From Sulfurovum sp. (GTDB lineage Bacteria > Campylobacterota > Campylobacteria > Campylobacterales > Sulfurovaceae), in NCBI GenBank assembly GCA_021166685.1, contig JAJPEU010000010.1, forward strand, positions 1-64,000: 64,000 bases of DNA. The letters run 5' to 3'. The position numbers and the translations under genes are program-made. Below are positions 26,948 through 47,798 of the stretch, in pieces. Below the pieces are notes generated by a model, which did not search any database, was not told where the DNA came from, and saw only the letters and a program-made list of their open reading frames with translations. Position 1 is the first letter of the stretch; each line of letters begins with the position of its first letter.

Positions 26948-26997
26948 ATGAGAGTCTCTATCGCTTGTTGAAAAGAATTAATGATAAAGGTAGCGGT

Positions 26998-27978
26998 ATG
27001 ATAAAGGAAACATTTGTAGCCTCTGATCCAGTCAGCGCATATGAACAGGCCATTAAAAAATATGGAAATAATGTGACGTTGGTTTCTGCTAAACAGATAC
27101 AGCATGAAGATGGAAAGTTGCGCAGTGAAATTGTTATTGAAGTTGCAAAAAATCTTTTTATGGAAAAATCTTTTGGAAAGGTGTCAGCAAGGAACACTGC
27201 TGAAGAAGTCAAAAAATTATTTTTAAATAAAGGGATCTCTTCTGTTTGGCTTGAGATGATGTTTGAATCTCTTGAAGAAAATTCTATTTTGGAGGATAAG
27301 CCGCTTCTTGTTTCCTATCTTATCGAAGAGATTGATGAGGCTTTAAAAATTAAAGAAGAAGACCTTTCGTCCCCAAAAGTGATGATGCTTGTGGGTCCTA
27401 CGGGTGCCGGAAAAACTACAACGATTGCGAAATTAGCCGCACGCTATGCTTATTTGATGGACAGGCCCTATAAGGTTGCCTTGTTGAATCTTGACAATTA
27501 CAAAGTGGGTGCGGTTGAACAGTTGGAGCATTATGCGGATATCATGCAAATAGAGCACGTATCGATTGGTTCCACGGACGAATTTAAGAAAAACCTTGAG
27601 CGTTTTTCAGACTATGATGTGATTTTGATCGATACCGCAGGCATGTCTCCTTACGATACGCGTAAATTTATAAAGACGATAGGATTCGTTTCCTGTGATG
27701 CCGCAAAAAAGATCGAAGTTGCTTTGGTGCTGGCAGCAACAGTGAAGTATGAAGATATGGAAGATATCTATAAAAATTTTTCTTTTTTAAATCTCAGCAG
27801 TGTGATTATAAGCAAGTTTGATGAAACAAAACACTTTGGAACACTTCTTAATTTTATGCTGCTGTATAAATTGCCTATGAGTTATTTTTCCATAGGGCAG
27901 GAGGTGCCTGACGATCTTATGGTTGCAGACAAAGAGTATCTTCTGGAGCAATTCATCGGAGACATGGATGAAAACTGA
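26998..27978 (+). CDS. flhF: Flagellar biosynthesis GTPase FlhF
   Basis: SRP-type GTPase that places the flagellum at the cell pole. I chose ATG 26998 because MIKETFVASDPVSAYEQAI matches the FlhF B-domain start; the frame is open further upstream into folK. The N domain follows, then the G domain with GPTGAGKTTTIAK (about 133), DNYKVGAVEQL, and DTAGMSPYD. At 326 residues it is shorter than many FlhF proteins because the linker after the B domain is short. No ylxH/flhG gene follows; a FliN-like gene does. Confidence 0.9.
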   Translation: MIKETFVASDPVSAYEQAIKKYGNNVTLVSAKQIQHEDGKLRSEIVIEVAKNLFMEKSFGKVSARNTAEEVKKLFLNKGISSVWLEMMFESLEENSILEDKPLLVSYLIEEIDEALKIKEEDLSSPKVMMLVGPTGAGKTTTIAKLAARYAYLMDRPYKVALLNLDNYKVGAVEQLEHYADIMQIEHVSIGSTDEFKKNLERFSDYDVILIDTAGMSPYDTRKFIKTIGFVSCDAAKKIEVALVLAATVKYEDMEDIYKNFSFLNLSSVIISKFDETKHFGTLLNFMLLYKLPMSYFSIGQEVPDDLMVADKEYLLEQFIGDMDEN

Positions 27979-28435
27979 AACACAAGCAGTTCGTTTGGCA
28001 AACATGATGCAAAAACGACCGCTTTATCCTGAATACGAGCTTGCTCTGCCTTGGGTTCAGATTAAAAAAAGTGCGCTTAAAAAATTAAGCAAAGGTGATG
28101 TGCTGCTTTTTGGGCTTGACAGCCTTAAGATGATACTTGTGGATGACAAAAAGAGTATTGCCGGCGTTCAATTGGATGCAACGCATCAAAATAGTGTAGA
28201 AATCATTTATGTCAATGAAGAGATGCAGCAGCAGGTAAGTGAAAAAAAGTATAAAATCCTTAAATGTTCTTTTGGTTTTGTTCAGAGCAGAAAGCTTGAG
28301 ATAGGGCATAGAATGAGTATTTCGTCGTTAAATTTGAAAGAGGTGGCGCTTTTTGTAGAAGGAGTCTGTATCGCAAAGGGCTCTTTGGTTAATGTGGATG
28401 AAGAAATTGCCATAGAGATAACAAAAGTGAATTGA
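27968..28435 (+). CDS. FliN-like SpoA-domain protein
   Basis: A 155-residue protein starting at ATG 27968, overlapping the flhF stop by 11 bases. The last 70 residues match the SpoA fold of FliN/Fli[43 protein letters not shown]. The N-terminal half ([19 protein letters not shown]) resembles the second SpoA-like half of FliM/FliY-type proteins. A role in the flagellar motor C-ring is likely. It lacks the CheC-like middle domain of FliY, so it is FliN- or FliM-tail-like, not a full switch protein. Confidence 0.7.
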
Positions 28436-28436
28436 A

Positions 28437-29456
28437 ATGAAAAAAAAAGTATTGGTCGGAATGAGCGGCGGGGTTGACTCTACGGTTGCGGCTATTTTGC
28501 TTCAAAAAGAGGGATATGAGGTGGAGGGTGTCTATATGAAGCTTCACCATAAGGAAGGGTATCATGAGCAAAATTTTCTCAAAGCCAAACGTGTAGGCGA
28601 ATACCTGGGAATCAAAATCCACTTCAAAGACCTTTCCGAAGCATTCCAGGAAGAAGTGTATGATTACTTTGTGGAGAGCTACAAGCAGGGATTAACGCCA
28701 AATCCTTGCGTGATGTGCAACAGAACCATCAAATTTGGAAAAATGATTGAGTTTGCAGACAGCATAGGCGCAGATTTTGTAGCGACGGGACATTATATTA
28801 AGTGCGACGGTGAGTTTATTTATGAAGCCGATGATCCCAATAAAGATCAGAGTTATTTTCTATGTCAAGTCAAGAAAGAGGTTTTGTCTAGATTGATTTT
28901 TCCATTGGGCTCATGGGTAAAAGACGATGTCAAAGAGTATGCCGCCAGCATAGAAGTGCTTCAAGATTTTGCTGTACAAAAAGAGAGTTCGGAGATCTGT
29001 TTTGTGGAAAATACTTACGATGAAGTGTTGGCAAAGCATATGGATATAGACATGCCGGGCGAAACCATAGATACTCAAGGCAATGTAGTGGGAACGCATA
29101 AAGGCTATATGCACTACACTATAGGCAAAAGGAGAGGATTCTTTGTCAACGGCGCCCATGATCCGCATTTTGTATTGGACATCGAACCTGAAAAAAACCA
29201 AATCATTGTAGGAACAAAAGAAAAACTTGAAGTAAATGCCTTTGAGGCAAAGCAGATCAATCTTTTTGAGGAAAAAAAGGAGTTTGACTGCAAAGTGAAA
29301 GTGCGCTATAGAACAAAAGCTGTTGCTTGCCGTGTCACGATAGAAAACGAAAGAGCCAAAGTAAGTTTGGAAGAGCCGGTTTTTGGGTTGGCCAAAGGTC
29401 AGATTGCAGCATTTTATGAGGGGCATAAACTGATAGGAGGAGGGGTAATCTGCTAG
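28437..29456 (+). CDS. mnmA: tRNA 2-thiouridylase MnmA
   Basis: Inserts sulfur at uridine 34 of certain tRNAs. PP-loop [15 protein letters not shown] (8-22), catalytic Cys in [15 protein letters not shown] (about 88-102) and the second catalytic Cys in SSEICFVEN (about 184-192). Length 339 is normal. It begins two bases after the FliN-like stop, in the same operon. Confidence 0.96.
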
Positions 29457-29469
29457 GCATGCCTTCGGA

Positions 29470-30003
29470 TTATTCTTTTGAAGAGTTTTGCTCTTTAGAT
29501 TCTCTTTCGTTCCTTTCAAACGTTTTGGAATCTTTTTCTTTCTGGACCGAAGAGATCCAAAGCCAGTTGATCAGAAAATAGACCAAACCTGAAACCACAA
29601 TAGAATAAAAAGCAGTTCCGACATAAAGGGGTACAAGTATGTCTGAAAAATGTGCGGTAAACCATTCCATGGTAAGCTCTATATCCTGAATTCCTTCACG
29701 TCCCAAGATAAAATTACCTGTCAGATATTCTATAAAGTAAACTACAGGCATGGTAAAAGGATTGGTAAGCCAGACCATGGAGAGAGCTATGGGTACATTG
29801 AAACGTACAAAGGGGGTAGTGGCAACCACTGCAAGCATTTGCATCGGCATGGGAATAAAAGCCCAAAAAAGTCCTACAAACACACCTCTGGTCACCGTCT
29901 TTCGATTGATAGAAAGATAAGTTCTTGGAAGATTGTATTTGTCTAAAAAAGTATCTATTTTGCTTTTTTCGGATGACTTTCTTTTAAAGACTTTACGTAT
30001 CAT
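29470..30003 (-). CDS. DUF2062 membrane protein
   Basis: A 177-residue inner membrane protein with three or four helices between about 30 and 155. GLFWAFIPMPMQM and LTNPFTMPVVYFIEYLTG match the DUF2062 family, whose function is unknown. Both termini are highly charged, rich in Lys, Ser and Glu. Convergent with mnmA, and divergent from prs. Confidence 0.8.
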   Translation of the reverse strand: MIRKVFKRKSSEKSKIDTFLDKYNLPRTYLSINRKTVTRGVFVGLFWAFIPMPMQMLAVVATTPFVRFNVPIALSMVWLTNPFTMPVVYFIEYLTGNFILGREGIQDIELTMEWFTAHFSDILVPLYVGTAFYSIVVSGLVYFLINWLWISSVQKEKDSKTFERNERESKEQNSSKE

Positions 30004-30117
30004 GCCGCTCCTGATAAAATAATTTGCGTAAGTGTAGTGTCGCAGAGCTTTAAATCACCTTTTTATTAAGTTTGGTGTAAAATACATTCCAACAAATAGA
30101 TACAAAAAGGTACACCC

Positions 30118-31053
30118 ATGAGCGGATATATGATTTTTTCGGGCACTGCAAATCCAGAGCTTTCTCAGCAGATTGCAAATTATCTTGAAATGCCTCTTTC
30201 AAGAGCAACAATCAATCGTTTTTCAGATGGCGAAATCAATGTGCAGATCGCAGAAAGTGTGCGCGGTAAAGACGTGTTTATCGTGCAGCCTACTTGTGCG
30301 CCTGCAAATGATAATCTCATGGAGCTTCTTATTATGACGGATGCGCTCAAGCGTTCTTCTGCCAAATCAATTACTGCGGTTGTGCCTTATTATGGGTATG
30401 CCAGACAGGACAGAAAAGCTGCACCCAGAGTTCCGATTTCTGCAAAACTGGTAGCCAATCTTATGGAAACAGCCGGAATCACCCGTATGGTAACCGTAGA
30501 TTTGCATGCTTCTCAAATCCAAGGGTTTTTTGATATACCGGTGGATAATCTTTATGGGGCTATTTTATTTATAGACTACATTAAGGCGAAAAATCTTCCA
30601 AATCCCGTCATCGCATCTCCGGATATCGGGGGTGTAGCAAGAGCAAGATATTTTGCAAAAAAACTGGGTCTTGACATGGTTATTGTCGACAAGAGACGTG
30701 AAAAAGCCAATGTGGCAGAAGTGATGAATATCATTGGCGACGTAAAAGGCAGAGATGTCATTTTGATTGATGACATGGTAGATACGGCAGGAACCATGCT
30801 TAAGGGGGCGGCTGCACTTAAAAAACTCGGCGCAAACTCAGTTATGGCGTGCTGTACACATCCTGTACTCTCGGGACAAGCCTACGAGCGTATCGAAGAG
30901 GGGGATTTGGATGAATTAGTCGTGGCAAATACCATTCCAATGCAAAAACAATCACCCAAGATCAAAATGCTTTCTACGGCCTCTATGCTGGGGGAAGTGA
31001 TACGAAGAGTGCATAACAACGAGAGTGTAAACTCACTGTTTGAGACGAATTAA
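30118..31053 (+). CDS. prs: Ribose-phosphate pyrophosphokinase
   Basis: Makes PRPP from ribose 5-phosphate and ATP. Motifs: [10 protein letters not shown] (about 36), [10 protein letters not shown] (about 96), [14 protein letters not shown] (about 128), the flexible Lys/Arg loop [11 protein letters not shown] (about 192), and the PRPP-binding [14 protein letters not shown] (about 218). The last base of its stop codon is the first base of lepA. Confidence 0.97.
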
Positions 31054-32864
31054 TGACAAAAACAGTACCTCAATCCCATATACGTAATTTTTCAATTATT
31101 GCACATATTGACCATGGGAAATCAACTTTAGCTGACCGTATTATACAAGAGTGCGGAGCAGTATCCGAAAGACAGATGTCCTCACAGGTCATGGACACCA
31201 TGGATATTGAAAAAGAACGCGGCATCACCATTAAAGCGCAAAGTGTTCGGTTGGATTACAAGAAGGACGGGGAGGATTATATCCTCAACCTTATCGACAC
31301 TCCGGGCCATGTTGATTTTTCATATGAGGTGAGCCGTTCTTTAGCTTCAAGTGACGGCGCATTGCTCATTGTGGATGCCGCACAAGGTGTGGAGGCCCAG
31401 ACTATAGCCAATGTCTATATCGCCATGGAAAATAATCTGGAACTTTTACCTGTTGTCAACAAAATAGACCTTCCTGCTGCTGATCCCGATAGAGTGCTGG
31501 CCGAATTGGAGGAAGCTATAGGGATTGATGCAACCGAGCACAATCTTGTTTCGGCCAAAACAGGAGAGGGGGTTAAAGCCCTTATTGACTCTATTATCGA
31601 GCGTGTACCTCCGCCCAAGGGGGATGCGAATGCACCCGCTAAAGCATTAATCTATGACAGTTGGTTTGACAATTATCTGGGGGCACTTGCCTTGGTGCGT
31701 GTATTTGACGGAAGTATCAAAAAAGGACAGATGGTCAAGGTGATGGGGACAAAAGATGAACATCAAGTGCTTAATCTCATGTATCCAAATCCTATCGCAC
31801 CTGTCAAGACCAATGAAATTCGTACCGGCGAGATCGGTATTGTGGTGATGGGATTAAAAACAGTAGATGCCCTTCAGGTGGGTGATACCATTACTGATTC
31901 TAAAAATCCAACTGCAGAGATGATTGCAGGATTTGAGCCGGCAAAACCTTTTGTATTTGCGGGGATCTATCCTATAGAAACGGATAAATTTGAGGATTTG
32001 CGTGATGCGCTGAATAAACTTAAACTCAATGACTCTTCGCTCAGCTTTGAGCCGGAAAGTTCGATGGCGCTTGGGAGCGGATTTAGGACAGGCTTTTTGG
32101 GAATGTTGCATATGGAGGTGGTCAAAGAGCGGCTTGAGCGTGAATTTGACTTGGAGCTTATCGCTACTGCACCTACGGTAGTGTATCGTGTGAAGCAAAC
32201 CAACGGAACAGAGCTAGAGATACAAAATCCCAGCGAACTTCCCGAGCCGCAAAAGATAGATACAATTTATGAGCCTTATGTCAAAGCAACGATCCTGACA
32301 CCCCAGGAGTATGTAGGAAATCTCATAAAACTGCTCAATGACCGCCGCGGAATACAGATAAAGATGGACTATCTCAGTGAAACGCGTGTGCTCATGGAGT
32401 ATGATATTCCCATGAATGAAATCGTAATGGATTTTTATGACAAGCTAAAATCCATAACGAAAGGCTATGCGAGTTTTGATTATGAGCCGATCGGATTTAG
32501 GCCCGGCAACCTTGTCAAGCTGGATATCCGAGTAGCGGGAGATATCGTGGATTCCCTTTCAATCATTGTGCCCGAAGAGAAAGCGCGTACAAGAGGACTT
32601 GCTTTTGTTGCGCAGCTAAAAGAACTTATCCCCAGACAGCTTTTTGAGGTGGCGATTCAGGCAAGTATCGGCAACAATGTCATTGCACGAAGCAATGTTA
32701 AATCGATGGGCAAAAATGTGACGGCAAAATGTTATGGTGGAGATATTACGCGAAAAAGAAAGCTTTTGGAAAAACAAAAAGCAGGGAAAAAACGTATGAA
32801 ATCCATCGGGAAGGTTGAAGTCCCGCAAGAAGCATTTATGGCCGTATTGAAGCTTGAGGGCTGA
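31053..32864 (+). CDS. lepA: Elongation factor 4 (LepA)
   Basis: Ribosome-associated GTPase. G1 [14 protein letters not shown] (about 17-30), switch motif [12 protein letters not shown]3 DTPGHVDF (about 79), G4 NKIDLP, followed by domain II, two EF-G-like domains and the LepA-specific C-terminal domain ending in the basic stretch [17 protein letters not shown]. 603 residues, normal. One-base overlap with prs. Confidence 0.97.
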
Positions 32865-33513: not shown

Positions 33514-34128
33514 ATGGAAATGTTTATAGTAAATCAAATAGTTTGGAAAAAAGCTGCAGCGGTATGCTTTTTAATATCGGCAATTGCCTGCAGCGCGGCA
33601 GCAGATGATGTGACGGACAGTATCGAGGAAGCTGTTGATGCCTATAAAAAAGGTGAATATAAAAAAGCAAGCGAAGAGCTTACCTATGCACTCGAGTCCA
33701 TTAACCAGAAAAAAGGAAATAGTCTTAAAATCTATCTTCCGGAGCCTCTTGAAGGCTGGACGGCGGACGAAGCAACTGCGCAGACGGCAAATGCAGCTAT
33801 GCTGGGAGGAGGAACAATGTTGAGCCGAACCTATCATAAGTCCGAATCCCTCATTACGATAGAAATGGTCATGGATTCTCCGTTAATGCAAGGAATAGCA
33901 ATGATGATGGCCAATCCGATGTTTAGATCTTCAGAAATAGGAGAGCTTACTCGGATCAACAAAGAAAAAGCGATGATTAAATACGACAACAAAGAAAAAT
34001 CAGGCGATATTACAATGATTGTGGCAAACCGTATTATGGTAACAGTAAAAGGTGAAACTGTCTCCAAAGAAGAGCTGATCGCATATGCGAAGGCAATTGA
34101 TCTTAAAAAACTTAAAGCAATGGAATAA
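33514..34128 (+). CDS. Secreted protein of unknown function
   Basis: A 204-residue exported protein (signal peptide ending AAA near 31). Residues 35-66 look like one TPR-type helix pair (AVDAYKKGEYKKASEELTYAL). The rest contains LPEPLEGWTADEAT and two Met-rich stretches (MVMDSPLMQGIAMMMANPMF). I do not recognise a named family. A GGGGAGGAATGG site precedes the start; ATG 33520 is an alternative. Confidence 0.6.
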   Translation: MEMFIVNQIVWKKAAAVCFLISAIACSAAADDVTDSIEEAVDAYKKGEYKKASEELTYALESINQKKGNSLKIYLPEPLEGWTADEATAQTANAAMLGGGTMLSRTYHKSESLITIEMVMDSPLMQGIAMMMANPMFRSSEIGELTRINKEKAMIKYDNKEKSGDITMIVANRIMVTVKGETVSKEELIAYAKAIDLKKLKAME

Positions 34129-34190
34129 TAAAGTTAGGTTTATGAAAAATAACTCTTTGATCCATAAAACTAAAATCCGCAATCAGTACG

Positions 34191-34199
34191 TGTTATAAT
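34191..34199 (+). promoter_or_regulatory. Extended -10 box right before comF-like gene
   Basis: TGT-TATAAT ends 6 bases before the ATG at 34205, with no Shine-Dalgarno between. Transcription would begin at or one base beside the start codon, suggesting a leaderless mRNA. Confidence 0.5.
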
Positions 34200-34204
34200 T
34201 TCGT

Positions 34205-34780
34205 ATGCGATGTTTTTCCTGTTCAAAACTTAGTTTTTCCATCCTCTGCAAAAGCTGTCAAGAGAAGCTTTTTGTGCCTACGATTACCAAAAGGACGGTA
34301 GGTACTTTGGAAGTGGTCAGTTTTTTTAAATATTCTGCCTTGGAATCCTTGCTTCATACCAAGCATAAGCCCGAAGGGTATCGTATCTTTAGGGCTTTGG
34401 CTCAGATGACGATGCGTCCATTCATCGAAAAGTTTATGCAATTTGATGATAAAAAGATATGTGTTGTCGGAATTGATGAGCGGGTTAAAAACGGTTATGC
34501 GCATGTGGCATTATTGACACATGTCATGAAACACAAAAATGCAATACCTTTGCATGGCGCCCTTATGGCCAAAAACAAAGTCAACTATTCGGGCAAAACC
34601 CTTCAGTACCGTTTGGACCATCCCAGGGATTTTGTTTATAAAGGCAAGCCTAATATCGATGTGGTGCTTGTGGATGACATCATCACAACGGGCATTACGC
34701 TTCAAGAGGCGCAAAAAGTGCTGCTGGAACACGGGGTGAATGTGCTTTTTGCGTTGACTTTGGCAGATGCGCAGGAGTAG
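34205..34780 (+). CDS. ComF-type phosphoribosyltransferase-like protein
   Basis: 191 residues. The N-terminus has two Cys pairs (CFSC, CKSC) forming a zinc knuckle. The C-terminal phosphoribosyltransferase-like domain carries VVLVDDIITTGITLQEA (about 156-172). ComF/ComFC homologs are linked to DNA uptake in naturally competent bacteria. No other competence gene is nearby. Confidence 0.85.
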   Translation: MRCFSCSKLSFSILCKSCQEKLFVPTITKRTVGTLEVVSFFKYSALESLLHTKHKPEGYRIFRALAQMTMRPFIEKFMQFDDKKICVVGIDERVKNGYAHVALLTHVMKHKNAIPLHGALMAKNKVNYSGKTLQYRLDHPRDFVYKGKPNIDVVLVDDIITTGITLQEAQKVLLEHGVNVLFALTLADAQE

Positions 34781-34818
34781 CTGTTTTATAAAGCAGTTTT
34801 TTTGAAGTAAAGGATACA

Positions 34819-36765
34819 TTATCTGCATGAAATACAACAAATTTGATTGCTGCTGTCATTATTATTGCTGTACTTTTTCCAATCTATCGGTTTTAAAGCC
34901 GCAAGGCGTTTTTGATACTCTTCTTTGCTGATCTCCTCGTAGGGCATCTGTTCATAGATGCCTGTTGTATTGTAGGGCATCATGGAAACTGATTTGATGA
35001 GCGGCACAAACCGTGCGAGCATATGTTCGATCTGGCCTCCTTCTTCTTGCGCATCAAAAGAGATCGTGCAGCTGACCATATTGTCACTCCATTCGCGCTG
35101 AAGCATCGCCAAGAAAGCAAACTGCTCCCATGCGGATACTTCCGATACTTTGCGGGTTTTGCCCTGATCTATAGGAAATTCGAAGACTGTCGTGTTGGTG
35201 CTGTAGCGGTCCGGCTCATTGGGGATGTCGGCTGACTTGAGTAGCTTGCAAATGGGGGCGTCATTTGCTACCCGCATACGGCGGATGGCGTAGCGGAAGT
35301 TTGGGAAGTGCATCCCGGAGCTGACCCCGACAAGTTGGCTGATGGTACCTGATGGTTTTACTGTGGTTACCCGTATCGAAGGCGGGATATTGGCTTGGGC
35401 AGCCAGTTTGCGGTTAAGTGAATACACCAGCTTATATCCTTTTCGCAGTCTGCGGATCAGTTCCGCCGTCCCCAGCATATCGAGCATCTCTGTAATCCCT
35501 GAAAGGCTCACGCCGATGCGGCGGTTTCGCAAGATGATTTCATTGGTTTCGCTCCGGTGTGTCGGAAGCAGCGCTACAGTGGAGGCGTAAAAGGCGGCAA
35601 ATTCCAGCGCTTTGTAAAATGCTGCTTCGTCTTCGCAGCGGGTATGAAAGACTTCGGCAAGGTTGCACAGCTCGAAACTCTCCAGCGCAATCTCGGAGCA
35701 GGGGTTTGCCAGATAGGCTTTGTCTTTCGCTTTTTCGCCGTATCTGGCATACTTCTGTACATTGATCAGGTTCATGATGCCCGGTTCGCCGTTGTCTTTG
35801 ATATGTTTGGCAATGCAGGAAAGTTTTTGGAAGTCTTCGTCTTTTTCAAGCACGACGGTGTTATTGGATACCCACCCTATGGCAGCGCGTTCGGGGTTTT
35901 TGGCATAGTCTTTGAGTTCCAGAAAGGTTTTATCATCGATCGACCCCAAAGCGATCTGCGCACTTCGCCGGACATTGCCTGCCACGACGCAGACACCGAT
36001 AGCGTTCATAATATCTGCAACGCACCGCGTCGAATTGCAAAGGCCCTGAGCGTAGGTATCAAGGTAGCTTTCGATACGCTTATGCAGCTGTTGCAGCGGT
36101 GCAGGCCCTGAAGCCGTACCGCCAAAGCCTTTGATGGGCGAGCCTTCAGGGCGGATCGCAGAATAGTCAAAAACATGCCATGCTCCGTTTTTGGTATAGC
36201 TTTCTATCAGCAGCCTGACTGAAGCGACCCATCCCTCACGGCTATCGGGAATGATAAATACGGCAGGGCGGCTTTTGTGGGGCATAGAGACATTTTCGCC
36301 TTTCCAGGCGGTATTGAACCCTACGCCTACGCCGCACATCAGCATGTCCATCGTCCAGTCTGCCGCCGCCGCCAGCTCGGCGGTATCGACTGCGCCGCAG
36401 TTGTTCAGCGCCGCACTTCCGCGCTCATAAATATAGTCCGTTCCCATGATCCACAGTCCCCGTCCGGGAGGCAGCCACTGCATCTGAAACATGGCATCTG
36501 CCAGCGCATGGGCATACGTCTGCCATTGCTGTTCATTCCATGATAGATCGTTCATAATGTAGTGGTTTTTGCGTACGGAGATCACACCGTTGATTACACG
36601 TATCACGGTATCGGCCCAGTGTTCCTGCGAGCCGTCAGGTTTGATGCGGCTATAGGTGCGGTAGTAGACCGCTTCGCCAAAACCCCCAAAGCCAAAATAT
36701 GCCTGCTTTTTGCGAAGCTCTTGGCAATAGGTTTCATCCAGGTAAAAGCGCTCTTTGACGATCAT
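34819..36765 (-). CDS. nrdJ: Class II (B12-dependent) ribonucleotide reductase
   Basis: 648-residue reductase of the single-chain adenosylcobalamin type. Active-site features: LNNCGAVD (about 120) with the first redox Cys, ANPCSEIALESFELCNL (about 360) holding the catalytic Asn-Cys-Glu, and a second redox Cys downstream. The C-terminus ends in a Cys cluster (CCISCR) expected to recycle the active-site disulfide. No partner small subunit is present, matching class II. The gene is clearly more GC-rich than its neighbours (for example GCCGCCGCCGCCAGC at 36362), a sign of transfer. Ribosome site AAGGATAAAAC precedes the ATG. Confidence 0.88.
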   Translation of the reverse strand: MIVKERFYLDETYCQELRKKQAYFGFGGFGEAVYYRTYSRIKPDGSQEHWADTVIRVINGVISVRKNHYIMNDLSWNEQQWQTYAHALADAMFQMQWLPPGRGLWIMGTDYIYERGSAALNNCGAVDTAELAAAADWTMDMLMCGVGVGFNTAWKGENVSMPHKSRPAVFIIPDSREGWVASVRLLIESYTKNGAWHVFDYSAIRPEGSPIKGFGGTASGPAPLQQLHKRIESYLDTYAQGLCNSTRCVADIMNAIGVCVVAGNVRRSAQIALGSIDDKTFLELKDYAKNPERAAIGWVSNNTVVLEKDEDFQKLSCIAKHIKDNGEPGIMNLINVQKYARYGEKAKDKAYLANPCSEIALESFELCNLAEVFHTRCEDEAAFYKALEFAAFYASTVALLPTHRSETNEIILRNRRIGVSLSGITEMLDMLGTAELIRRLRKGYKLVYSLNRKLAAQANIPPSIRVTTVKPSGTISQLVGVSSGMHFPNFRYAIRRMRVANDAPICKLLKSADIPNEPDRYSTNTTVFEFPIDQGKTRKVSEVSAWEQFAFLAMLQREWSDNMVSCTISFDAQEEGGQIEHMLARFVPLIKSVSMMPYNTTGIYEQMPYEEISKEEYQKRLAALKPIDWKKYSNNNDSSNQICCISCR

Positions 36766-36905
36766 GTTTTATCCTTGTTCTTCCGTTGCATTAAACATTC
36801 ATACTTATTTTCTTGTTTCCGCAGTTTTTGTTTGTAGTGCACGCACGGTTTTGTCGGAATGAGAAAATTGATAGATTGCTTTTGTTTTCCATCCATCCTT
36901 CGGAA

Positions 36906-37292
36906 TTATTTGTCTTTTATTGTAACCAATGTCAAATTGTGCAGTCCGTTCTTTTGAAGCATATCCAAGACTAAAACGATCCTTTTGTAGATCACCTCTT
37001 CATCTATTCTTATAATAATGACTCTTTTTTTATCTGTTATTTTTTTCAGTGCCTCTTCAAGCAGTTCAAGTGTTACCTCTTTACCTCCAAACGCGATCTG
37101 CTCTTCGGAAAGTTCAATGGTAATCCGCTCTTCTTCAATATCCAGTTTCTGTGCGTTAGAGCTGGGAAGATTTAAGAGAAGCGCCAATTCTTCTTTTTTA
37201 AATATCGATGTGACGATAAAAAATATAATCAGGATAAACACTACATCAATAAGCGGTGTCATCTCCAGCTGTAACGGTTCCCGCCGTTTCAT
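36906..37292 (-). CDS. exbD: ExbD/TolR-type energy-transducing protein
   Basis: 128 residues: one N-terminal membrane helix with the essential Asp in EMTPLIDVVFILIIFF (about 9-24) and a periplasmic domain. Works with ExbB and TonB to pass the proton gradient to outer-membrane receptors. Overlaps exbB by 4 bases. Confidence 0.93.
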   Translation of the reverse strand: MKRREPLQLEMTPLIDVVFILIIFFIVTSIFKKEELALLLNLPSSNAQKLDIEEERITIELSEEQIAFGGKEVTLELLEEALKKITDKKRVIIIRIDEEVIYKRIVLVLDMLQKNGLHNLTLVTIKDK

Positions 37293-40593: not shown

Positions 40594-42693
40594 TTGAGTA
40601 AGTTTAGTTTGTATCCGGTTACTTTGGATGGTTTAGATATAGCGGCAAAAAGAGAAGAGATAAGGGCATATTTTCACAACACTTATGATATTTTTGAGAA
40701 GATTTTTGAAGTGCTTAAAAGCGATGAGGTCTTTTACAAAAAATCGGAACCGACCCGCCATCCGATGATATTTTATTTTGGACATACCGCAACGTTTTTT
40801 ATAAATAAACTTATCCTCATGAAGATAATCAAAGAGCGTATAAATCCTGAATTTGAATCCATTTTTGCAGTCGGCGTGGATGAGATGGAGTGGGATGATT
40901 TGGAGAGCGGACATTACAGATGGCCCAAAGTCGATGAGGTTAGGGCGTATCGTAAAAAAGTAAGAGAGATTGTTGATGAACTTATAACTACGCTTCCGCT
41001 AACCCTTCCCATAACGCAAGACTCCGATATGTGGATAATTTTAATGGGGATAGAGCATGAGCGCATCCATATAGAAACTTCTTTGGTTTTGCACCGTCAG
41101 ATGCCCATAGAGTTTATACAAGAAGTTGAAGAGTTTAATATCTGCACCCACTCCTCAAGCGCGCCTAAAAATGAGATGCTTGCTATTAAAGGCGGCGATG
41201 TTGTTTTGGGTAAAGAGAAGTCGCACAATCTCTACGGATGGGATAACGAATATGGCAGATATTCGCACTATGCGGACGATTTTAAGGCTTCAAAATATTT
41301 GGTAAGCAACGGCGAATTTATGGAGTTTGTAAAAGAGGGCGGATATGAGGATGAAGCTTTTTGGGACGAAGAGGGAAGAAGATTTTTAAAAATAAGCGGC
41401 GCAAAACACCCGACTTTTTGGGTAAAGGATGGAAACGGTTTTAAATACAGAACACTTGCCAAGGTTATAGATATGCCCCTTGACTGGCCTGTTGATGTAA
41501 ATGCGCTTGAAGCAGAGGCGTTTTGCCGCTACAAAAGCAAGAAAGAGGGGGCAAACTACTCTCTGCCCAGCGAAACAGAATACCGCCTTATATACGAGTA
41601 TGCAAAACTAGAGGATATTCCGGACTTTCACGAGAGCAGGGCAAATTTGAATTTCTACCACTATTTCAGCTCATGTCCCGTAAATGAGTTTGGTTTCAAC
41701 GGTATATACGATGTGGTCGGAAATGTGTGGCAGTGGAGCCGCACGCCGATTTTCGGTTTTGAGGGATTTGAATTTCATCCGGCATACGATGACTTTTCAA
41801 CACCGACATTTGACAATAGGCATGCGCTCATTTTAGGTTCATCGTGGGCAAGCAGCGGAAATCTTATCATGAAACATTCCCGTTATGCGTTTCGCAGACA
41901 CTTCTACCAAAATGCCGGGTTTAGATATGTCATCTCAAAAAGCGAGTCAAAGAGTAAAAACGATGTTTACGAGAGCGACGAGCTTGTGTCGCAGTATTGC
42001 GAGTTTCAGTACGGAGATGACTATTTCGGCGTGAAAAACTTTGCAAAAGAAACGGCAAACATAGCTTCAAAATTTGCAAAAGAACGCACAAAAGCACTTG
42101 ACCTTGGCTGTGCGACAGGTCGTTCAACGTTTGAGCTTGCAAAGCGTTTTGATGAGGTAGAGGGGATCGATTTCTCTGCCAGATTTATAGGTGTTGGCGT
42201 AAAGCTCAAAAATGAGGGCTATGTAGCCTACATGGCAAAAACGGAGGGAGATTTGAGTCAAGAGAAAAAAGTAACCATACAAGAGCTTGGTTATGAGAGC
42301 ATAAAAGAGAAAGTCGCTTTTTGGCAAGGCGATGCGTGTAACCTGAAACCGAATTTCAACTCTTACGACTTAGTTATGGCGACAAATCTTATAGATAGGC
42401 TCTACAATCCGCGGCTCTTTTTGGACAGTGTTCATGAGAGGCTAAACAGGAACGGAGTTTTGATGTTGACCTCTCCCTATACATGGCAAGAGAGTTCAAC
42501 CAAAAAAGAGTTTTGGCTCGGCGGATACAAAGATGAGAACGGCAAAGAAGTTAAAACGCTAGATACGCTAAAAGAGATTTTGAACAAAAATTTTGAACTT
42601 GTTCATCTGCAGGATTTGGAGTTTGTCATAAGAGAGACAGCCAGAAAGTTTCAGCACAGCATAGCGCAGGTGAGTGTTTGGAGGAAAAAGTGA
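40594..42693 (+). CDS. ovoA: 5-histidylcysteine sulfoxide synthase / methyltransferase OvoA
   Basis: First enzyme of ovothiol A synthesis. The N-terminal DinB-like helical domain (iron ligands in MGIEHERIHIETS, about 151-163) is followed by an FGE-sulfatase-like domain (about 205-450, DVVGNVWQWSRTP) and a C-terminal SAM methyltransferase (LDLGCATGRSTFELA, about 497). It joins histidine and cysteine as a sulfoxide and later methylates the product. TTG start at 40594 after AAAAGGGAAT. 699 residues fits full-length OvoA. Confidence 0.93.
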   Translation: MSKFSLYPVTLDGLDIAAKREEIRAYFHNTYDIFEKIFEVLKSDEVFYKKSEPTRHPMIFYFGHTATFFINKLILMKIIKERINPEFESIFAVGVDEMEWDDLESGHYRWPKVDEVRAYRKKVREIVDELITTLPLTLPITQDSDMWIILMGIEHERIHIETSLVLHRQMPIEFIQEVEEFNICTHSSSAPKNEMLAIKGGDVVLGKEKSHNLYGWDNEYGRYSHYADDFKASKYLVSNGEFMEFVKEGGYEDEAFWDEEGRRFLKISGAKHPTFWVKDGNGFKYRTLAKVIDMPLDWPVDVNALEAEAFCRYKSKKEGANYSLPSETEYRLIYEYAKLEDIPDFHESRANLNFYHYFSSCPVNEFGFNGIYDVVGNVWQWSRTPIFGFEGFEFHPAYDDFSTPTFDNRHALILGSSWASSGNLIMKHSRYAFRRHFYQNAGFRYVISKSESKSKNDVYESDELVSQYCEFQYGDDYFGVKNFAKETANIASKFAKERTKALDLGCATGRSTFELAKRFDEVEGIDFSARFIGVGVKLKNEGYVAYMAKTEGDLSQEKKVTIQELGYESIKEKVAFWQGDACNLKPNFNSYDLVMATNLIDRLYNPRLFLDSVHERLNRNGVLMLTSPYTWQESSTKKEFWLGGYKDENGKEVKTLDTLKEILNKNFELVHLQDLEFVIRETARKFQHSIAQVSVWRKK

Positions 42694-43871
42694 ACTATGA
42701 CTTTTCAGTCTCTGCACCAAGAGAAGATACAAATGCGGAAAAGTACGCTCTTAGAGAGAAGCTTTTCGGTACAAATGAGGTGCTTCCTGTGTGGGTGGCG
42801 GATATGGATATCGATACGCCATGTTTTGTGCTTGAAGCGGTAAAAAAACGCTTAGAGCATCCCGTCATAGGGTATGAGGAAGTGCCGCCAAGCATGTTTC
42901 TTGCCCAGATAGAGTGGATGAAAAACAATCACGGTGCGGAGTTTGCCTTAGAAGAGATGCTCTATTCGCACTCGGTGGTAGCAAGTATGAACGTCGCCAT
43001 AGAAGCATTTACGCAAAAGGGCGATAAAGTTATCGTCCAAACACCCGTATATCCGCCATTTTTTCACAGTGTCATAGAGCATGAGAGAGAGCTTTTGAAA
43101 AATCCTCTCAAACACAGAGAGGACGGAAGCTACACTTTTGACATAGATGATTTAAAATCAAAAATAGACAAAAAAACCAAACTTCTGCTTCTGTGTTCTC
43201 CGCACAATCCTGTCGGGCGTGTTTGGAGGAGAGAAGAGCTTGAGGAGATTTTAGAACTCTGTTTGAAGCATAACATCGTGGTATTTAGTGACGAGATCCA
43301 CTGCGATTTGGTGTATGTGCCAAATGTGCATATTCCGTTTGCCTCTTTGAACCAAAGAGCAAGAGAGATAACCGTCACGGCTATCGGTCCCGGGAAAACA
43401 TTTAACATGGCGGGTTTTGCCATAAGCGCGGTTGCTATACCAAACAAAGAGTTAAGAGCAAAATTTAAAAACGTTTACGACCGCATACATTTTGCGCACG
43501 GGTGTTCTCTCTCTCATGCCGCCTTTGAAGCTGCGTACAGGGAAGGCAAAGAGTGGCTCGAAGCGCTTCAAATACATCTGTTGAAAAATTATCGGATGCT
43601 AGATGAGGTATGCAAAAAGTTTGGACACCGCATAAAACTTACCCCGATGGAGGGGACATATTTGGCTTGGCTTGACTGCAGAGGTTTGGGGCTTTGCGAC
43701 AAAGAGTTGAGAGATTTTTTTGTTCATAAGGCGGGGCTTGGACTAAGCACAGGGATAAGTTTTGGCAGAGAGGGAAGCGGTTTTATGAGATTGAATTTTG
43801 CAGTCTCCTCTGCGAAAATGGCACAAGTGATAGAAAAACTGCAAAAAGCATTGCAAGAGCATAGGAACTAG
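42690..43871 (+). CDS. ovoB: PLP-dependent sulfoxide lyase OvoB
   Basis: MalY/PatB-like fold-type I PLP enzyme of 393 residues that would split the OvoA sulfoxide to 5-thiohistidine. GTG 42690 follows a GGAGG site and overlaps the ovoA stop as GTGA, so the two are translationally coupled. PVYPPFFHSV, CSPHNPVGRVW, SDEIHCDL and the PLP-Lys in GPGKTFNMAG are present. Stand-alone similarity would say cystathionine beta-lyase; the coupling to ovoA decides the call. Confidence 0.85.
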   Translation: MNYDFSVSAPREDTNAEKYALREKLFGTNEVLPVWVADMDIDTPCFVLEAVKKRLEHPVIGYEEVPPSMFLAQIEWMKNNHGAEFALEEMLYSHSVVASMNVAIEAFTQKGDKVIVQTPVYPPFFHSVIEHERELLKNPLKHREDGSYTFDIDDLKSKIDKKTKLLLLCSPHNPVGRVWRREELEEILELCLKHNIVVFSDEIHCDLVYVPNVHIPFASLNQRAREITVTAIGPGKTFNMAGFAISAVAIPNKELRAKFKNVYDRIHFAHGCSLSHAAFEAAYREGKEWLEALQIHLLKNYRMLDEVCKKFGHRIKLTPMEGTYLAWLDCRGLGLCDKELRDFFVHKAGLGLSTGISFGREGSGFMRLNFAVSSAKMAQVIEKLQKALQEHRN

Positions 43872-44018
43872 AAGTGGTTAAGAAAAATTGGGATGGTATA
43901 AGTTTCAGTTGCATGCAACGAAACAACGAATGACAGAGCAACACGGCTTAACTTTAAAAACTTCATACTTATCCTTAAATTTAGTTTTAAATAGTTATTT
44001 TACAAATATCAGTTTGTA
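43872..44018. other. Gap between ovoB and the cassette attC
   Basis: Short AT-rich tail with no gene. It marks the chromosomal side of the integron cassette insertion. Confidence 0.3.
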
Positions 44019-44135
44019 GTATAACGCAAAGCTAAGGGGCGGCTACAAGCGGCGCGTAAAATACGAAGCATGCGCCGATTGGAGACGTCCAGCGAGCAAC
44101 GCGAGCGAACCTTGAGCGCCTTGTTATGTGCCTTA
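44019..44135 (-). repeat. attC recombination site, distal end of the cassette
   Basis: On the minus strand, the outer site ACATAAC is followed by AAGGCGCTCAAGG, and the other end shows CCCTTAGCTTTGC followed by GTTATAC. The two arms pair (CAAGGCGCTCAAGG against the complement GCAAAGCTAAGG) with an unpaired C, as in attC. The arms enclose a variable GC-rich centre, giving about 110 bp in total. The DUF262 stop codon lies in the outermost bases. Confidence 0.82.
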
Positions 44136-45971
44136 ATCAGATTCATCTATTACGGTTTCATTTGTTTCTATTGTGTCAATTACATCAAATGTTAAATCGT
44201 TAAGTTTTGTTTTTAAGTCAGCCAAAATACTATTCACTCTACTTTCTATAAATTGGTCAATGGCGTCTTCTGGCAATACTCCGCTTCTTGCCCAATCTAG
44301 TATCTCACCGGAAAGTAAATGGGAAGGCATAATTGCTTCAAATTCTGGTTTATCGTAGTCTTTCATGTACTCAAGTGGATTTCTATTTGTAATATCAAGA
44401 TTCGTTATTTGCGTTAAATAAGCAATATTCATTAAGCTGTCGCTTGTTATTTTATTTTTATGTTTGTTGTTCAGAACATATTCAGAATTTGTGGGAAAAA
44501 TGTGGTGTAGATTTGGTTTGTCGGTGGAGAAAAAGAAGTTTTGAACTAACACTTCTCTGTCGCAATGTTCCCAATCTTTGGGTTGGGCGCTTGCATATAG
44601 CGCCAAAATAGCTCTACTCATTCTGCCTTTTGAGCTATACGTTGCCGAACGAAGTCTTTGCTTGTCTATTAAGAACCGGTCAAATGCAAGAGGTTCGTTT
44701 TTCTTTCCTTTGCTTAGGAATTCTATATGTTGTCCTAACTGCGTTGTATTGCTTAATTTATCTTCATTGTGAAAGCTATTAAACCAAAAATATTTTTTCA
44801 GTAAACCATAGTCAGGGGAGCTATTTTTATAAAAGTAAGCTGTAACGGTAAAATAAAAGTAACGAAATGGAATTAAGTATGGGGTTTTTAGATGCAAATG
44901 ATTTTCAAAAAAGTCAAACGTTTTTAGCATGGCTTTCTTTGTTTCTTCCCACACTGCCAAAATATGTTCTGTTTTTATTTCATTCAAGTACCTGTCTGTA
45001 ATATTTCTTACTCCACTATCAGGAACATTGTGATTTATGATAATTGCCAGTATTTGTAGATAATCAAGGTCACTAATTTTCAGGAACTCACTGTTATTAT
45101 GATCTCTAAAATCATCAATTAACTCACGGAGATAAAATCCATCTTCACTTTGTGTAGCTGTCTTGAATGTTTTTGCTACAACAATATCAAATATATTTAA
45201 TGGTTTTCCTGCTTGATTTATTCTCTCAAAAATCTGACAAACTTCTGAAACCTGAATGCCTTTAACTTCTATGAATGAAATTCTGTAATTATCAAGAACC
45301 CCTTTAATTTTTGAAAGCTCTAATAGTATTTGATGATTGAAGTCTTTGTTGACAGTTTGACTATTGAATACGCTTGTCTGAACAGTCGTAAAGTTGTTTT
45401 TTATGTCTATAAGTTTAACGATTAACCCTTCATCAAATTTCTTTTTCTTGACTGTATTAGGCTTTAATTCTCCGTTTCTGTCATCAATTTCACTCCAAAA
45501 TAAAAACCTGCTACGGTAGCTTTCATCGTCTGTGTCGCTGTCAATCGGAATTGTAAGGTCAACATAGATCAAAGGATTGAATCCTGGCCGCCCTTCAATG
45601 CTTCCACCGTAAAGAGATGTCAAAAGTGAAGTCGTTCTCTGTTGCCCATCAAGAATATATTGATATTCTGTTCTGCTAAAATTTGTATCTGTAATTTGAT
45701 GCCCACCAATTTGTCTATGATTTTGAAGTTTTAAGTCAGTTTTCCAAACAAGAATGCTTCCCAGAGGATAGAATTTATAAATGCTGTCCCATAGTTTTTT
45801 AACATTTTGCTGTTCCCAAACTACGCTGCGCTGAAAAGTTGGAATTTGATAGTTCTTAGCGATTAACTCGTCAAGGTAAGTTGTCAAACCTTTGTTTGTA
45901 GGAAATATCCTGTCTGTGTAATTCATTTTTTCTTCCTATTAATTTGTGGTACTTCTAACTAAGGCACATAA
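44025..45971 (-). mobile_element. Integron gene cassette carrying a DUF262 protein
   Basis: One ORF and its attC, read on the minus strand. The cassette starts after G at GTTATGTGCCTTA (45972-45960) and its attC begins with the exact reverse complement TAAGGCACATAAC (complement of 44123-44135). Such pairing is expected only if these ends were joined in a circular cassette. A second attC lies at the upstream junction. No integrase is intact here; only a 3' relic remains at 46834. Confidence 0.82.
44133..45926 (-). CDS. DUF262 protein with C-terminal HNH-like motif, probable defence nuclease
   Basis: 597 residues. The DUF262 ParB/Srx-like core shows IPTFQRSVVWE (28-38), DGQQRTTS (93-100, the nucleotide-binding signature) and FERINQAGKPLN (233-244). 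The C-terminal part has LHHIFP (473-478) and N500, as in the HNH-type DUF1524 module of GmrS/GmrD-like type IV restriction enzymes. The expected role is nucleotide-stimulated cleavage of modified foreign DNA; not proven. It lies between two attC sites. Ribosome site AGGAAGAAAAA precedes the ATG. Low GC content, unlike the attC centre. Confidence 0.82.
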   Translation of the reverse strand: MNYTDRIFPTNKGLTTYLDELIAKNYQIPTFQRSVVWEQQNVKKLWDSIYKFYPLGSILVWKTDLKLQNHRQIGGHQITDTNFSRTEYQYILDGQQRTTSLLTSLYGGSIEGRPGFNPLIYVDLTIPIDSDTDDESYRSRFLFWSEIDDRNGELKPNTVKKKKFDEGLIVKLIDIKNNFTTVQTSVFNSQTVNKDFNHQILLELSKIKGVLDNYRISFIEVKGIQVSEVCQIFERINQAGKPLNIFDIVVAKTFKTATQSEDGFYLRELIDDFRDHNNSEFLKISDLDYLQILAIIINHNVPDSGVRNITDRYLNEIKTEHILAVWEETKKAMLKTFDFFENHLHLKTPYLIPFRYFYFTVTAYFYKNSSPDYGLLKKYFWFNSFHNEDKLSNTTQLGQHIEFLSKGKKNEPLAFDRFLIDKQRLRSATYSSKGRMSRAILALYASAQPKDWEHCDREVLVQNFFFSTDKPNLHHIFPTNSEYVLNNKHKNKITSDSLMNIAYLTQITNLDITNRNPLEYMKDYDKPEFEAIMPSHLLSGEILDWARSGVLPEDAIDQFIESRVNSILADLKTKLNDLTFDVIDTIETNETVIDESD

Positions 45972-46034
45972 CGGTTGAGTTGAGAAATATTTGAGCCGCA
46001 GGGTCAAATATTCCTCTCCAATGATTTGTTATGT
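45966..46034 (-). repeat. attC site at the upstream junction of the cassette
   Basis: On the minus strand ACATAAC ... GTTATGT bound a 69-bp hairpin. Its centre pairs AATATTTGA with TCAAATATT around CCTGCGG, and the outer arms TTGGAGAG and CTCAACTCAA pair with bulges. This belongs to the preceding cassette, whose ORF tail ends in it. Confidence 0.8.
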
Positions 46035-46079
46035 TTCTATATTTAATAGCTGTTCAAATTCTTCTTGATTTTCTATGTC
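46029..46079 (-). pseudogene. 3' tail of a second integron cassette gene
   Basis: Sixteen codons on the minus strand read DIENQEEFEQLLNIET and then TAA inside the upstream attC. The reading frame breaks at the REP sequence (46079). This is the expected tail of a cassette gene destroyed when the RAYT/REP element came in or by deletion. Too short to identify. Confidence 0.55.
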
Positions 46080-46119
46080 GTTTTTCTCGTCCCACCTCTC
46101 CTTAGGTGGGATGCATAGG
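46079..46119. repeat. Left REP palindrome of the RAYT element
   Basis: A 41-bp sequence with an internal hairpin CCCACCT-N6-AGGTGGG. It is the reverse complement of 46788-46828 with one mismatch. Confidence 0.85.
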
Positions 46120-46148
46120 AAGGCTGAAAGTCATTAAACTATGACAGT

Positions 46149-46682
46149 CTACCAGAACCTATCAACCTCTATCAATCCGCTCATCCCATTATAGTCTCTT
46201 GCACTTGAATATCTCCAATGTTCAGGCTTATCCACGTATCCTCTTTTTACAGGGTTTTGATGGATATATTCGATCTTGCTTTTTAGCATAAGGTCATTCT
46301 GTATCAATTTTGGTTGATAACCTTCCTCCCATACCTGATAGGTTTTCTCTTTTCTGTGAGCCTTTTTATAAAATGCCAACTGATCCAATAAGGTCGTAAC
46401 ATTTTCTTTATGTAAAAGCTTCAGCAGCTCTACAGCTGTAAACTTCTTAAAAGATGCCATACTTTTTTTTAAGTCATTACTTTGTACAACCATATGCAAG
46501 TGGTTTTCGAGTATCACGTAAGCGTGTAGCTTTAGAGCATCTTGTTTTTGTAAAAACTTCAGGCAATTCAGTACGATCTCTACACTCTCTTTTCTTGTAA
46601 ATATAGGTAGCCAATGTAAGATCGTGCATGTTACAAAATGTGGATGGGTTGGTTCATAGATTTTATATCTGCTTCTTCCCAT
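46149..46682 (-). CDS. REP-associated tyrosine transposase (RAYT, IS200/IS605 Y1 type)
   Basis: 177-residue Y1 transposase-like protein. The HUH motif is HLHMVV (about 65) and the C-terminal YIHQNPVKRGYVDKPEHWRYSSARDY holds the nucleophilic Tyr. It starts near the N-terminus with GRSRYKIYEPTHPHFVT, typical of RAYTs. It is flanked by inverted REP palindromes, so it forms a REP/RAYT unit, likely domesticated or able to mobilise REPs. Confidence 0.9.
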   Translation of the reverse strand: MGRSRYKIYEPTHPHFVTCTILHWLPIFTRKESVEIVLNCLKFLQKQDALKLHAYVILENHLHMVVQSNDLKKSMASFKKFTAVELLKLLHKENVTTLLDQLAFYKKAHRKEKTYQVWEEGYQPKLIQNDLMLKSKIEYIHQNPVKRGYVDKPEHWRYSSARDYNGMSGLIEVDRFW

Positions 46683-46787
46683 GATTTCTCTTTTTTATTA
46701 AGTATAGATGACTAAGAGATTGATGAGAACTTTTATGTCAGATTGTAATATTTTTTTAGTTTCAGGGATTATCAGTTATAGAGTATG

Positions 46788-46828
46788 CCTATGCATCCCA
46801 CCTACGGAGAGGTGGGACGAGAAAAACG
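46788..46828. repeat. Right REP palindrome of the RAYT element
   Basis: The inverted partner of the left REP, 40 of 41 bases complementary, again with an internal GTGGG hairpin. Integrase-like sequence begins five bases beyond. Confidence 0.85.
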
Positions 46829-46833
46829 AGGGA

Positions 46834-46972
46834 TTTATTGCAGGCCTGGATAGATTTAAGAAGTATACAGGAATTACTTGGGCATAAAAGTGTAGAGACG
46901 ACCATGATCTATACCCATGTGGTGGCAGAGATGAACAAAGGCAGGGTGGTTAGTCCGTTGGATATGCTATAA
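46834..46972 (+). pseudogene. 3' remnant of an integron-type integrase
   Basis: About 45 codons read [20 protein letters not shown], then the Tyr-bearing ETTMIYTHV and [13 protein letters not shown], ending at TAA 46970-46972. DNA and protein closely match 224-349. The first catalytic boxes are gone, replaced by REP sequence. Its plus strand position to the right of minus strand cassettes is the arrangement expected for intI next to its cassette array. Confidence 0.78.
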
Positions 46973-46973
46973 T
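46965..46973 (+). promoter_or_regulatory. Extended -10 box overlapping the integrase relic stop
   Basis: TGC-TATAAT ends 7 bases before the sirtuin ATG at 46980 with no ribosome site, so a leaderless mRNA is likely. Confidence 0.5.
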
Positions 46974-46979
46974 TTTCCC

Positions 46980-47798
46980 ATGAACATGACACAAAATCTG
47001 CAAAAAGTTAAACAATTGTTACAACAAGCCGATGCGATCTTTATTACTGCCGGGGCAGGGATGGGGGTTGACAGCGGGCTGCCCGATTTTAGGGGGAAAG
47101 AGGGATTTTGGCAGGCCTATCCCAAAGCCAAAGCGCTTGGGCTGGAGTTTGAAGAGCTGGCAAACCCCAAGTGGTTTGAGGATGACCCCAAACTTGCATG
47201 GGCCTTTTACGGCCATAGGCTCCATCTTTACCGTGATACCGTACCTCATGAGGGTTTTAAAAAACTGCTTGAGCTATCTTATACTAAAAAATATGGTTCT
47301 TTTGTTTTTACTTCCAATGTCGATGGGCAATTTCAAAAAGCAGGGTTTGAAGAGAGCAGGGTGATGGAGTGTCACGGCTCGATCCATTATCTGCAATGCT
47401 GCAATGACTGTCAAGGAAAGGTATGGAGCGCAGAAAATACCAATATCGAGATCACGGAAAGCTTTCAGGCCAAAGAACCGCTGCCAAGCTGTCCTTCGTG
47501 CGGCGGTATGGCACGGCCGAATATCCTGATGTTCGGAGACTTTGGATGGAACTATCATCGTACAAATGCACAAAGAGAGGAGCTTAAAAGTTGGATGCAG
47601 ATGCTGGAGGATCATGGAGCGAAGCTAGCCGTTATCGAAGCGGGGGCAGGTACGGCCGTGCCCACCGTGCGAAATACCTCCCGGCAGATAGCCAAAAATT
47701 TCGACGTGCCTTTGATACGGATCAACCCTAAAGAGAGTTTTGGGGCAGCGATCGAACTGCCGATAGGGGCGCTTGAAGCACTGAATAATATTATATAA
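46980..47798 (+). CDS. Sir2-family NAD-dependent protein deacetylase
   Basis: 272 residues. NAD motif GAGMGVDSGLPDFRG (about 24-38), SNVDGQF (about 111-117), catalytic His in MECHGSIHYLQC (about 130-141), four zinc Cys in CNDC and CPSC, and INP near the C-terminus. Removes acyl groups from lysines using NAD. The GVDSGLPDFRG form and the extended insert differ from CobB and place it in another bacterial sirtuin group. Two degraded copies occur at 38855 and 48480. Confidence 0.9.
   Translation: MNMTQNLQKVKQLLQQADAIFITAGAGMGVDSGLPDFRGKEGFWQAYPKAKALGLEFEELANPKWFEDDPKLAWAFYGHRLHLYRDTVPHEGFKKLLELSYTKKYGSFVFTSNVDGQFQKAGFEESRVMECHGSIHYLQCCNDCQGKVWSAENTNIEITESFQAKEPLPSCPSCGGMARPNILMFGDFGWNYHRTNAQREELKSWMQMLEDHGAKLAVIEAGAGTAVPTVRNTSRQIAKNFDVPLIRINPKESFGAAIELPIGALEALNNII

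Follow-up and report, generated by a model that had tools for sequence, protein, structure and literature searches.

How a gene for a DUF262/HNH protein came to lie between two integron-type recombination sites in a Sulfurovum genome, and whether gene and site have travelled together, are the questions raised by the locus described here, which occupies positions 44,019 to 46,034 of a stretch of 64,000 nucleotides of contig JAJPEU010000010.1 (assembly GCA_021166685.1; henceforth, the window). The minus strand from 45972 to 44019 is one integron gene cassette carrying a 597-aa DUF262 plus HNH-like open reading frame (ORF), and the locus has the architecture of such elements, a single ORF ending in an attC site. 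Taking all the evidence together, it is very probably a cassette that persists in what is left of a chromosomal integron; the cassette ends would have been exchanged for a set with an attC of the OXA type, and the cargo resembles the enzymes GmrSD and BrxU.

The first-pass annotation of this DNA had proposed one ORF between two attC-like hairpins of different length, with a cassette start that is the exact reverse complement of its own attC start. Both observations hold. The hairpins, hereafter attC1 (69 nt, belonging to the preceding cassette) and attC2 (111 nt, the cassette's own), are real sites, although their limits had to be corrected slightly, to 45966-46034 and 44019-44129, respectively. 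As for the complementarity, TAAGGCACATAAC (45960-45972) and GTTATGTGCCTTA (44123-44135) match at 13 of 13 nt and were also recovered as a repeat pair; in four of the related loci presented below (L051, L055, L060 and L062) the corresponding match extends over 9-10 nt. Complementarity of the cassette start to its own R'' gives a longer stem in the circular form. What the annotation saw as a cassette between attC sites was thus correct, but it overlooked a relic of an integron integrase gene (intI, 46829-46972) and the foreign nature of attC2.

We scanned positions 43501-47100 under strict rules (both R'' and R' cores with two or more outer core pairs, a helix of L'' and L', and a minimum free energy fold with the cores paired) and obtained exactly two sites, 46034-45966 and 44129-44019, far above shuffled sequence: dinucleotide shuffles gave a mean of 0.033 strict sites and none of 300 contained two or more. 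A loose scan for R''/R' plus a stem, with 310 matches in shuffled against 418 in real sequence, was dropped for the strict version. At both sites the cores and the L''/L' pair were present and, on folding, the L arm showed an extrahelical base. Relative to the strict consensus RYYYAAC/GTTRRRY, one of the four variable positions in the cores deviates, as is also seen in other attCs of the family. A covariance model (R1) trained on nine attCs of other genomes, none of them from the window, returned two matches in the 64 kb, ranking attC1 first (46.5 bits, E=2.8e-9) and attC2 second (12.9 bits, E=1.1), and in the whole 1.8-Mb genome attC1 was the sole significant match (E=7.9e-8). The attCs of class 1 integron cassettes (dfrA21, catB2, catB3, aadA1 and others) were recovered as positive controls, whereas the known attC of blaOXA-129 reached only 14.3 bits, which indicates that long attCs of such type score low in this model. 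Both the covariance search and the folding of the single strands, which the first-pass annotation had suggested as checks, came out in its favor. Elsewhere in the window, the strict scan had only one other match (36313-36409), probably due to chance; it sits in a stretch (34001-37000) that has a GC content of 0.46-0.51 against ~0.41 for most of the window, spans a ribonucleotide-reductase-like ORF (34819-36765) and is possibly foreign.

It could be argued that the hairpins are ordinary inverted repeats or terminators beside a defense gene that arrived otherwise, their integron look being fortuitous, and the E value of attC2 would be in line with this. However, the shuffles and the score of attC1 speak against it, as do the adjacent intI relic, which points away from the cassette as expected of an intI, and a terminator scan in which none was found. 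Moreover, attC2 and the attC of a resistance cassette share 89% identity, over the attC only. We consider this explanation extremely improbable. An Rfam search gave no match in the region.

The relationship just mentioned concerns blaOXA-129, to whose cassette attC the attC2 sequence is 88.9% identical across 108 nt (E=3e-28), the likeness being confined to the attC; identity to the attC of blaOXA-10 is 84% across 97 nt. The blaOXA-129 site, near-identical to attC2, is located in a class 1 integron array on plasmids. Sites like attC2 are present in 43 plasmid records, and the same type also occurs 3' of an unnamed ORF in pHH128 and of one ORF in an IMP-13 array. While the attCs of the blaOXA-10 and blaOXA-129 cassettes are 83-89% identical to attC2 across most or all of its length, the gene they carry is a wholly different one and the leader is dissimilar. 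No second example of the attC2 type was found in the 397 genomes sampled from the host phylum, Campylobacterota. Judged by its sequence, attC2 is of the OXA-10/OXA-129 type and foreign to that phylum.

The ORF, in turn, has relatives in quite different hosts. In the GTDB genomes we found 14 loci with relatives that were 74-90% identical in amino acids across the aligned part, in Bacteroidota, Chlorobiota, Ignavibacteriota, Nitrospirota, WOR-3, Treponema and Pseudomonadota, the latter including the isolate Acinetobacter sedimenti; most are from metagenome-assembled genomes, so that individual host assignments carry a risk of binning error. No close copy was found in the 396 other genomes sampled from the host phylum or among the IMG/VR viral contigs. 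Nor was the ORF found in the host family without these flanks, an occurrence that the first-pass annotation had named as evidence against a cassette. A search of the homologues for cassette settings, also suggested there, disclosed cassette features around at least eight relatives (L051, L053, L054, L055, L056, L060, L061 and L062) and probably L059, with a start complementary to the cassette's own R'' in most of them, and no clear attC in L057 and L058. The attC types differ: 133 nt in L051-L056, a type with 83.8% identity to a site that an Empedobacter plasmid carries, 72-75 nt in L060 and L061, and the 111-nt OXA type in the window. In A. sedimenti (L052, 5946-7830) the leader and the R'' core are kept but the attC body is absent, directly in the chromosome; this may be a cassette that either lost its attC or was inserted without one. 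We dropped the idea of a recent transfer across phyla, as synonymous sites between the window and its relatives are near saturation, and it is strong constraint rather than a recent origin that accounts for the 74-90% identity of the proteins.

If the coding sequences are so similar and the attCs so different, have the cassette ends been replaced? Pairs of relatives provide the yardstick. Between L051 and L055, ORFs that are 82.4% identical in DNA go with attCs that are 77% identical (z ~12-13), whereas between the window and L051, with an ORF identity of 81.0%, attC identity falls to 47% (z ~3, background). In the same comparison, attC2 and the blaOXA-129 attC reach 86% (z 22-24). A conserved leader with GCCATTAT is common to L051-L056 and to L062, which belongs to the other clade, but is absent from the window, and homology between the window and its sisters stops ~7 nt upstream of the ATG at one end and ~24 nt short of the stop codon at the other. 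The ORF phylogeny places the window with L051-L054, within the clade bearing the 133-nt attC (support 89/90). Since sisters at equal ORF divergence keep attC and leader and the window does not, the ends appear to have been replaced on the window's branch. On the simplest reading of these sequences, either the attC would have been swapped and a new leader gained, or the cassette would have formed again from a bare gene.

The second of these routes, in which a non-cassette chromosomal gene like those of L057 and L058 became a cassette afresh by gaining an OXA-type attC, deserves separate consideration. It would account for a conserved ORF in which both leader and attC differ from those of the sisters and for the position of the homology limits close to start and stop, and non-cassette or decayed copies do exist (L052, L057 and L058). 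Nevertheless, no attC-less intermediate of the same ORF subtype beside an OXA-type attC is known, and group II introns, which are candidate cassette-makers, were absent from the ten sources scanned. We regard it as a serious possibility, though one with the lesser share of probability.

A different account holds that nothing was replaced: in a very old cassette, attC and leader would have diverged beyond recognition, and the blaOXA-10 and blaOXA-129 cassettes would later have taken the attC. Synonymous sites between the window and its sisters are indeed heavily diverged (difference at fourfold sites 0.51-0.60, pS ~0.74-0.82). Yet sister pairs at near-equal ORF divergence keep attCs that are 71-77% identical and leaders that can be aligned, the leader motif being common even to L062, and a re-pairing of gene and attC would still be needed on the OXA side. 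This account is unlikely, and we favor replacement of the ends.

What the re-fitted cassette carries is probably a single-chain DNA-cutting enzyme like GmrSD or BrxU, as indicated by profiles and motifs. The N-terminal domain matches DUF262/GmrSD_N (PF03235, 1.6e-29, 103.9 bits against a cut-off of 33.2). The first-pass annotation had already pointed out DGQQR and HHIFP, which stand at residues 93-97 and 474-478, in addition to KLWDS (44-48) and N500, N509 and N514; all are invariant or nearly so among 13 homologues, and D93-R97 is invariant in 13 sequences. HHIFP has H where the motif (E/D)H(I/L/V)xP has E or D. The PADLOC candidate profile PDC-M55C / HEC-05 covers residues 9-581 of 597 (1.1e-38), a comparison made at the level of the single gene that the cassette holds. 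When the family profile was compared with the PDB, the sole match was BrxU (7P9K, 1.1e-11), a single-chain type IV restriction enzyme of the GmrSD family (PDB 7P9K/7P9M; PMC8565348) that at ~590 aa is about as long as the window protein. Both proteins have DUF262 N-terminally, and the C-terminus is HNH in BrxU and HNH-like here, with RLFDS, DGQQR and DHIYP in BrxU (PMC8565348) corresponding to KLWDS, DGQQR and HHIFP, and the window motifs also correspond to those of the GmrSD family (PMC4619093). However, good alignment is confined to the N-terminal domain (profile positions 15-107, E=5e-9; a second stretch, 197-253, is weaker), the residue before the catalytic His is Asp in BrxU and His here, and BrxU is from a BREX island and not from an integron cassette. 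Compared with L051, dN is 0.057 and pS is 0.74, and such a low dN with heavily diverged synonymous sites points to strong purifying selection on the enzyme.

The GmrSD-like nature proposed by the first-pass annotation is supported, and an anti-phage activity is what we infer, as it did, from the domain family. A role other than defense, such as competition between mobile elements or DNA repair, might be entertained for a DUF262/HNH protein with a weak match to GmrSD_C, but the characterized relatives GmrSD, BrxU, SspE, TgvB and GrwA restrict phage or foreign DNA (PMC8565348, PMC12409362) and the PADLOC defense-candidate profiles match nearly full length. We find such a role rather improbable. 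By analogy with BrxU and Eco94GmrSD, DUF262 (KLWDS, DGQQR) would be expected to bind and hydrolyze NTP, and the HNH part (HHIFP...N...N) to be the one that cleaves DNA, the likeliest target being modified phage DNA.

The surroundings of the cassette (Table 1) are those of an integron in decay. The relic next to it (relic 2) matches TIGR02249 (1.9e-13) and is up to 95% identical to intI C-termini of genomes of the same family, and a second one (relic 1), at the contig edge, is 84% identical to it in DNA. The IS end that cuts relic 1 (1-118) occurs at the starts of contigs C5, C8, C18 and C20, which makes three contig ends besides the present one. A full-length intI was not found in this genome, the assembly of which is 94% complete; with relics only, the locus is a decayed integron and not a free-standing cassette. 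It classifies as a cluster of attC sites lacking integrase (CALIN; at least two attCs within 4 kb and no functional intI), with attC1 and attC2 1.84 kb apart, and not as a complete integron, which has a functional intI and an attI beside the array. The first cassette of the array is reduced to 16 codons, and between it and relic 2 lies an element with a REP-associated tyrosine transposase (RAYT). With its inverted ends this element resembles a transposable unit, and a 69%-identical RAYT adjoins an attC in another genome (locus L088, genome G019). As to a promoter of the cassette's own, promoter-like matches were no more numerous than in shuffles. Loss of intI by insertion or deletion is among the listed origins of CALINs (PMC8618304). 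The window shares with sedentary chromosomal integrons and CALINs the chromosomal intI and attC cluster, but here the intI relic is still visible and tells from which dead integron this CALIN derives.

Table 1. Features of the window (positions on the 64,000-nt stretch)
Feature	Position	Strand	Description
intI relic 1	119-349	+	~76 codons from the C-terminal end of another integron integrase; cut by IS end at contig edge
Aminotransferase, flanking chromosomal gene	42678-43871	+	Syntenic in genome G084
Possible 5' remnant of a third cassette (tentative)	43868-43966	-	32-codon ORF, signal-peptide-like start
attC2, the cassette's own attC	44019-44129	-	111 nt, OXA-10/OXA-129 type
attC2 parts		-	R'' ACATAAC 44129-44123; L'' CCTTGAGC-side arm with bulged G; L' GCTAAGG; R' GTTATAC 44025-44019
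Cassette ORF	44133-45926	-	597 aa, DUF262 (GmrSD_N) and HNH/DUF1524-like C-terminus
Cassette leader	45927-45972	-	First 13 nt (45972-45960) complementary to R'' side of attC2 (44123-44135)
attC1, attC of preceding cassette	45966-46034	-	69 nt, host-phylum type
attC1 parts		-	R'' ACATAAC; L'' TTGGAG with extra G; R' GTTATGT
3' end of preceding cassette's ORF (...DIENQEEFEQLLNIET*)	46029-46079	-	Stop codon inside R'' of attC1
RAYT element	46078-46829		42-nt inverted ends 46078-46119 / 46788-46829
RAYT transposase ORF	46149-46682	-	NF047646, 2.1e-28
intI relic 2	46829-46972	+	Last ~45 codons of integron integrase; Tyr box present, both catalytic Arg absent
Sir2-type deacetylase, flanking chromosomal gene	46980-47798	+	

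The chromosomal flanks place this integron in its host lineage. A genome of the same genus (G145) has an almost entire intI, and its end precedes the same Sir2 gene by ~10 bp, just as the end of relic 2 does here, which identifies the relic as the stump of an orthologous integron. In another genome (G084) the genes on both flanks are syntenic and 81-96% identical, and the interval between them holds other genes, with no attC and no integron; the ~30 bases before sir2 in this genome (L135) read ...NPFDML*, like the last intI codons, and may be a minute integron vestige. Misassembly and contamination were rejected on the basis of this synteny and of an intI relic and an attC1 that are both of the host-family type. 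The attC1 sequence is similar to sites on Aliarcobacter plasmids, and this likeness and the gene content by themselves point to Campylobacterota as the host phylum. The remark in the first-pass annotation that few cassettes are described in this phylum holds only in part: Campylobacterota already figures among the phyla listed in the literature as bearing integrons (PMC8618304). In the host family, an intI match exceeds the family cut-off in 31 of 150 genomes, and R1 detects an attC in 38 of 150. Two Aliarcobacter plasmids also carry defense candidates next to attC sites. One of Aliarcobacter faecis (L100, pAFAEC, 19149-31228) has an attC-rich cassette array with sites of the Campylobacterota type that includes two adjacent DUF262 genes, an HNH gene, a DUF2971 gene (PDC-S31) and further defense candidates, and one of Aliarcobacter butzleri (L101, 3985-4991) a Shedu gene (SduA, 1.8e-90) in a stretch with two attC matches (4603-4674 and 4998-5067).

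Some of our results weigh against the interpretation as a whole. By itself, attC2 is not significant under R1. An attI was not found at the locus and no complete intI is left, the attI position being taken by the RAYT element, and consequently the past insertion of the cassette is not directly demonstrable. The placement of the window within the Bacteroidota-attC clade is only moderately supported. With regard to the cargo, the match to GmrSD_C (PF07510, 0.037, 14.4 bits) is below the Pfam cut-off of 23 and the AlphaFold model obtained from the 13-member alignment was too poor to use (pLDDT 50).

With these points in mind, the following course of events seems plausible. From what is known of the integron mechanism, an integrase of the host lineage would once have inserted the circular cassette beside attI via the folded bottom strand of its attC. 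The integrase would later have been lost, as suggested by the junctions, the RAYT element now taking up the place expected for attI, the 5' portion of intI and the bulk of the first cassette. This would have left the cassette frozen in cis, but with both attC hairpins intact a suitable integrase acting in trans should still be able to move it. As for the cassette ends, leader and attC would, on the window's branch, have been exchanged for a set with the attC of the blaOXA-10/OXA-129 type, to which the sequence relation is clear.

Defense genes in integrons are a known class, and the valuable part of this locus is the re-pairing of gene and attC. The integron-borne phage-defense cassettes of Darracq et al. 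2025 and Kieffer et al. 2025, as far as PMC12409362 presents them, are also one-gene, defense-type cassettes with an attC and no convincing promoter of their own; here, in contrast, the integrase is dead, the host belongs to another phylum and the cargo, a type IV-like enzyme, is with its 1.8 kb large for a cassette. We see about an even chance that one lineage of anti-phage genes circulates across phyla as a cassette, its coding sequence kept and its leader and attC re-fitted, here with an attC of the blaOXA-10/OXA-129 type. How genes acquire attC sites and cassettes form is listed as an open question (PMC8618304), and Leon and Roy 2009, as cited in PMC3053210, hold that the gene and the attC of a cassette are not linked. 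The locus adds to this a cross-phylum comparison with an internal yardstick, which makes the unlinking of gene and attC measurable; it ties environmental defense cassettes to the pool of attCs on which the resistance cassettes of hospitals draw, and represents integron decay caught midway. If the proposed circulation is true, the cassette would provide a natural and well-controlled example of how a gene re-acquires an attC, the unsolved step of cassette formation, and defense and resistance cassettes would share one pool of attC modules.
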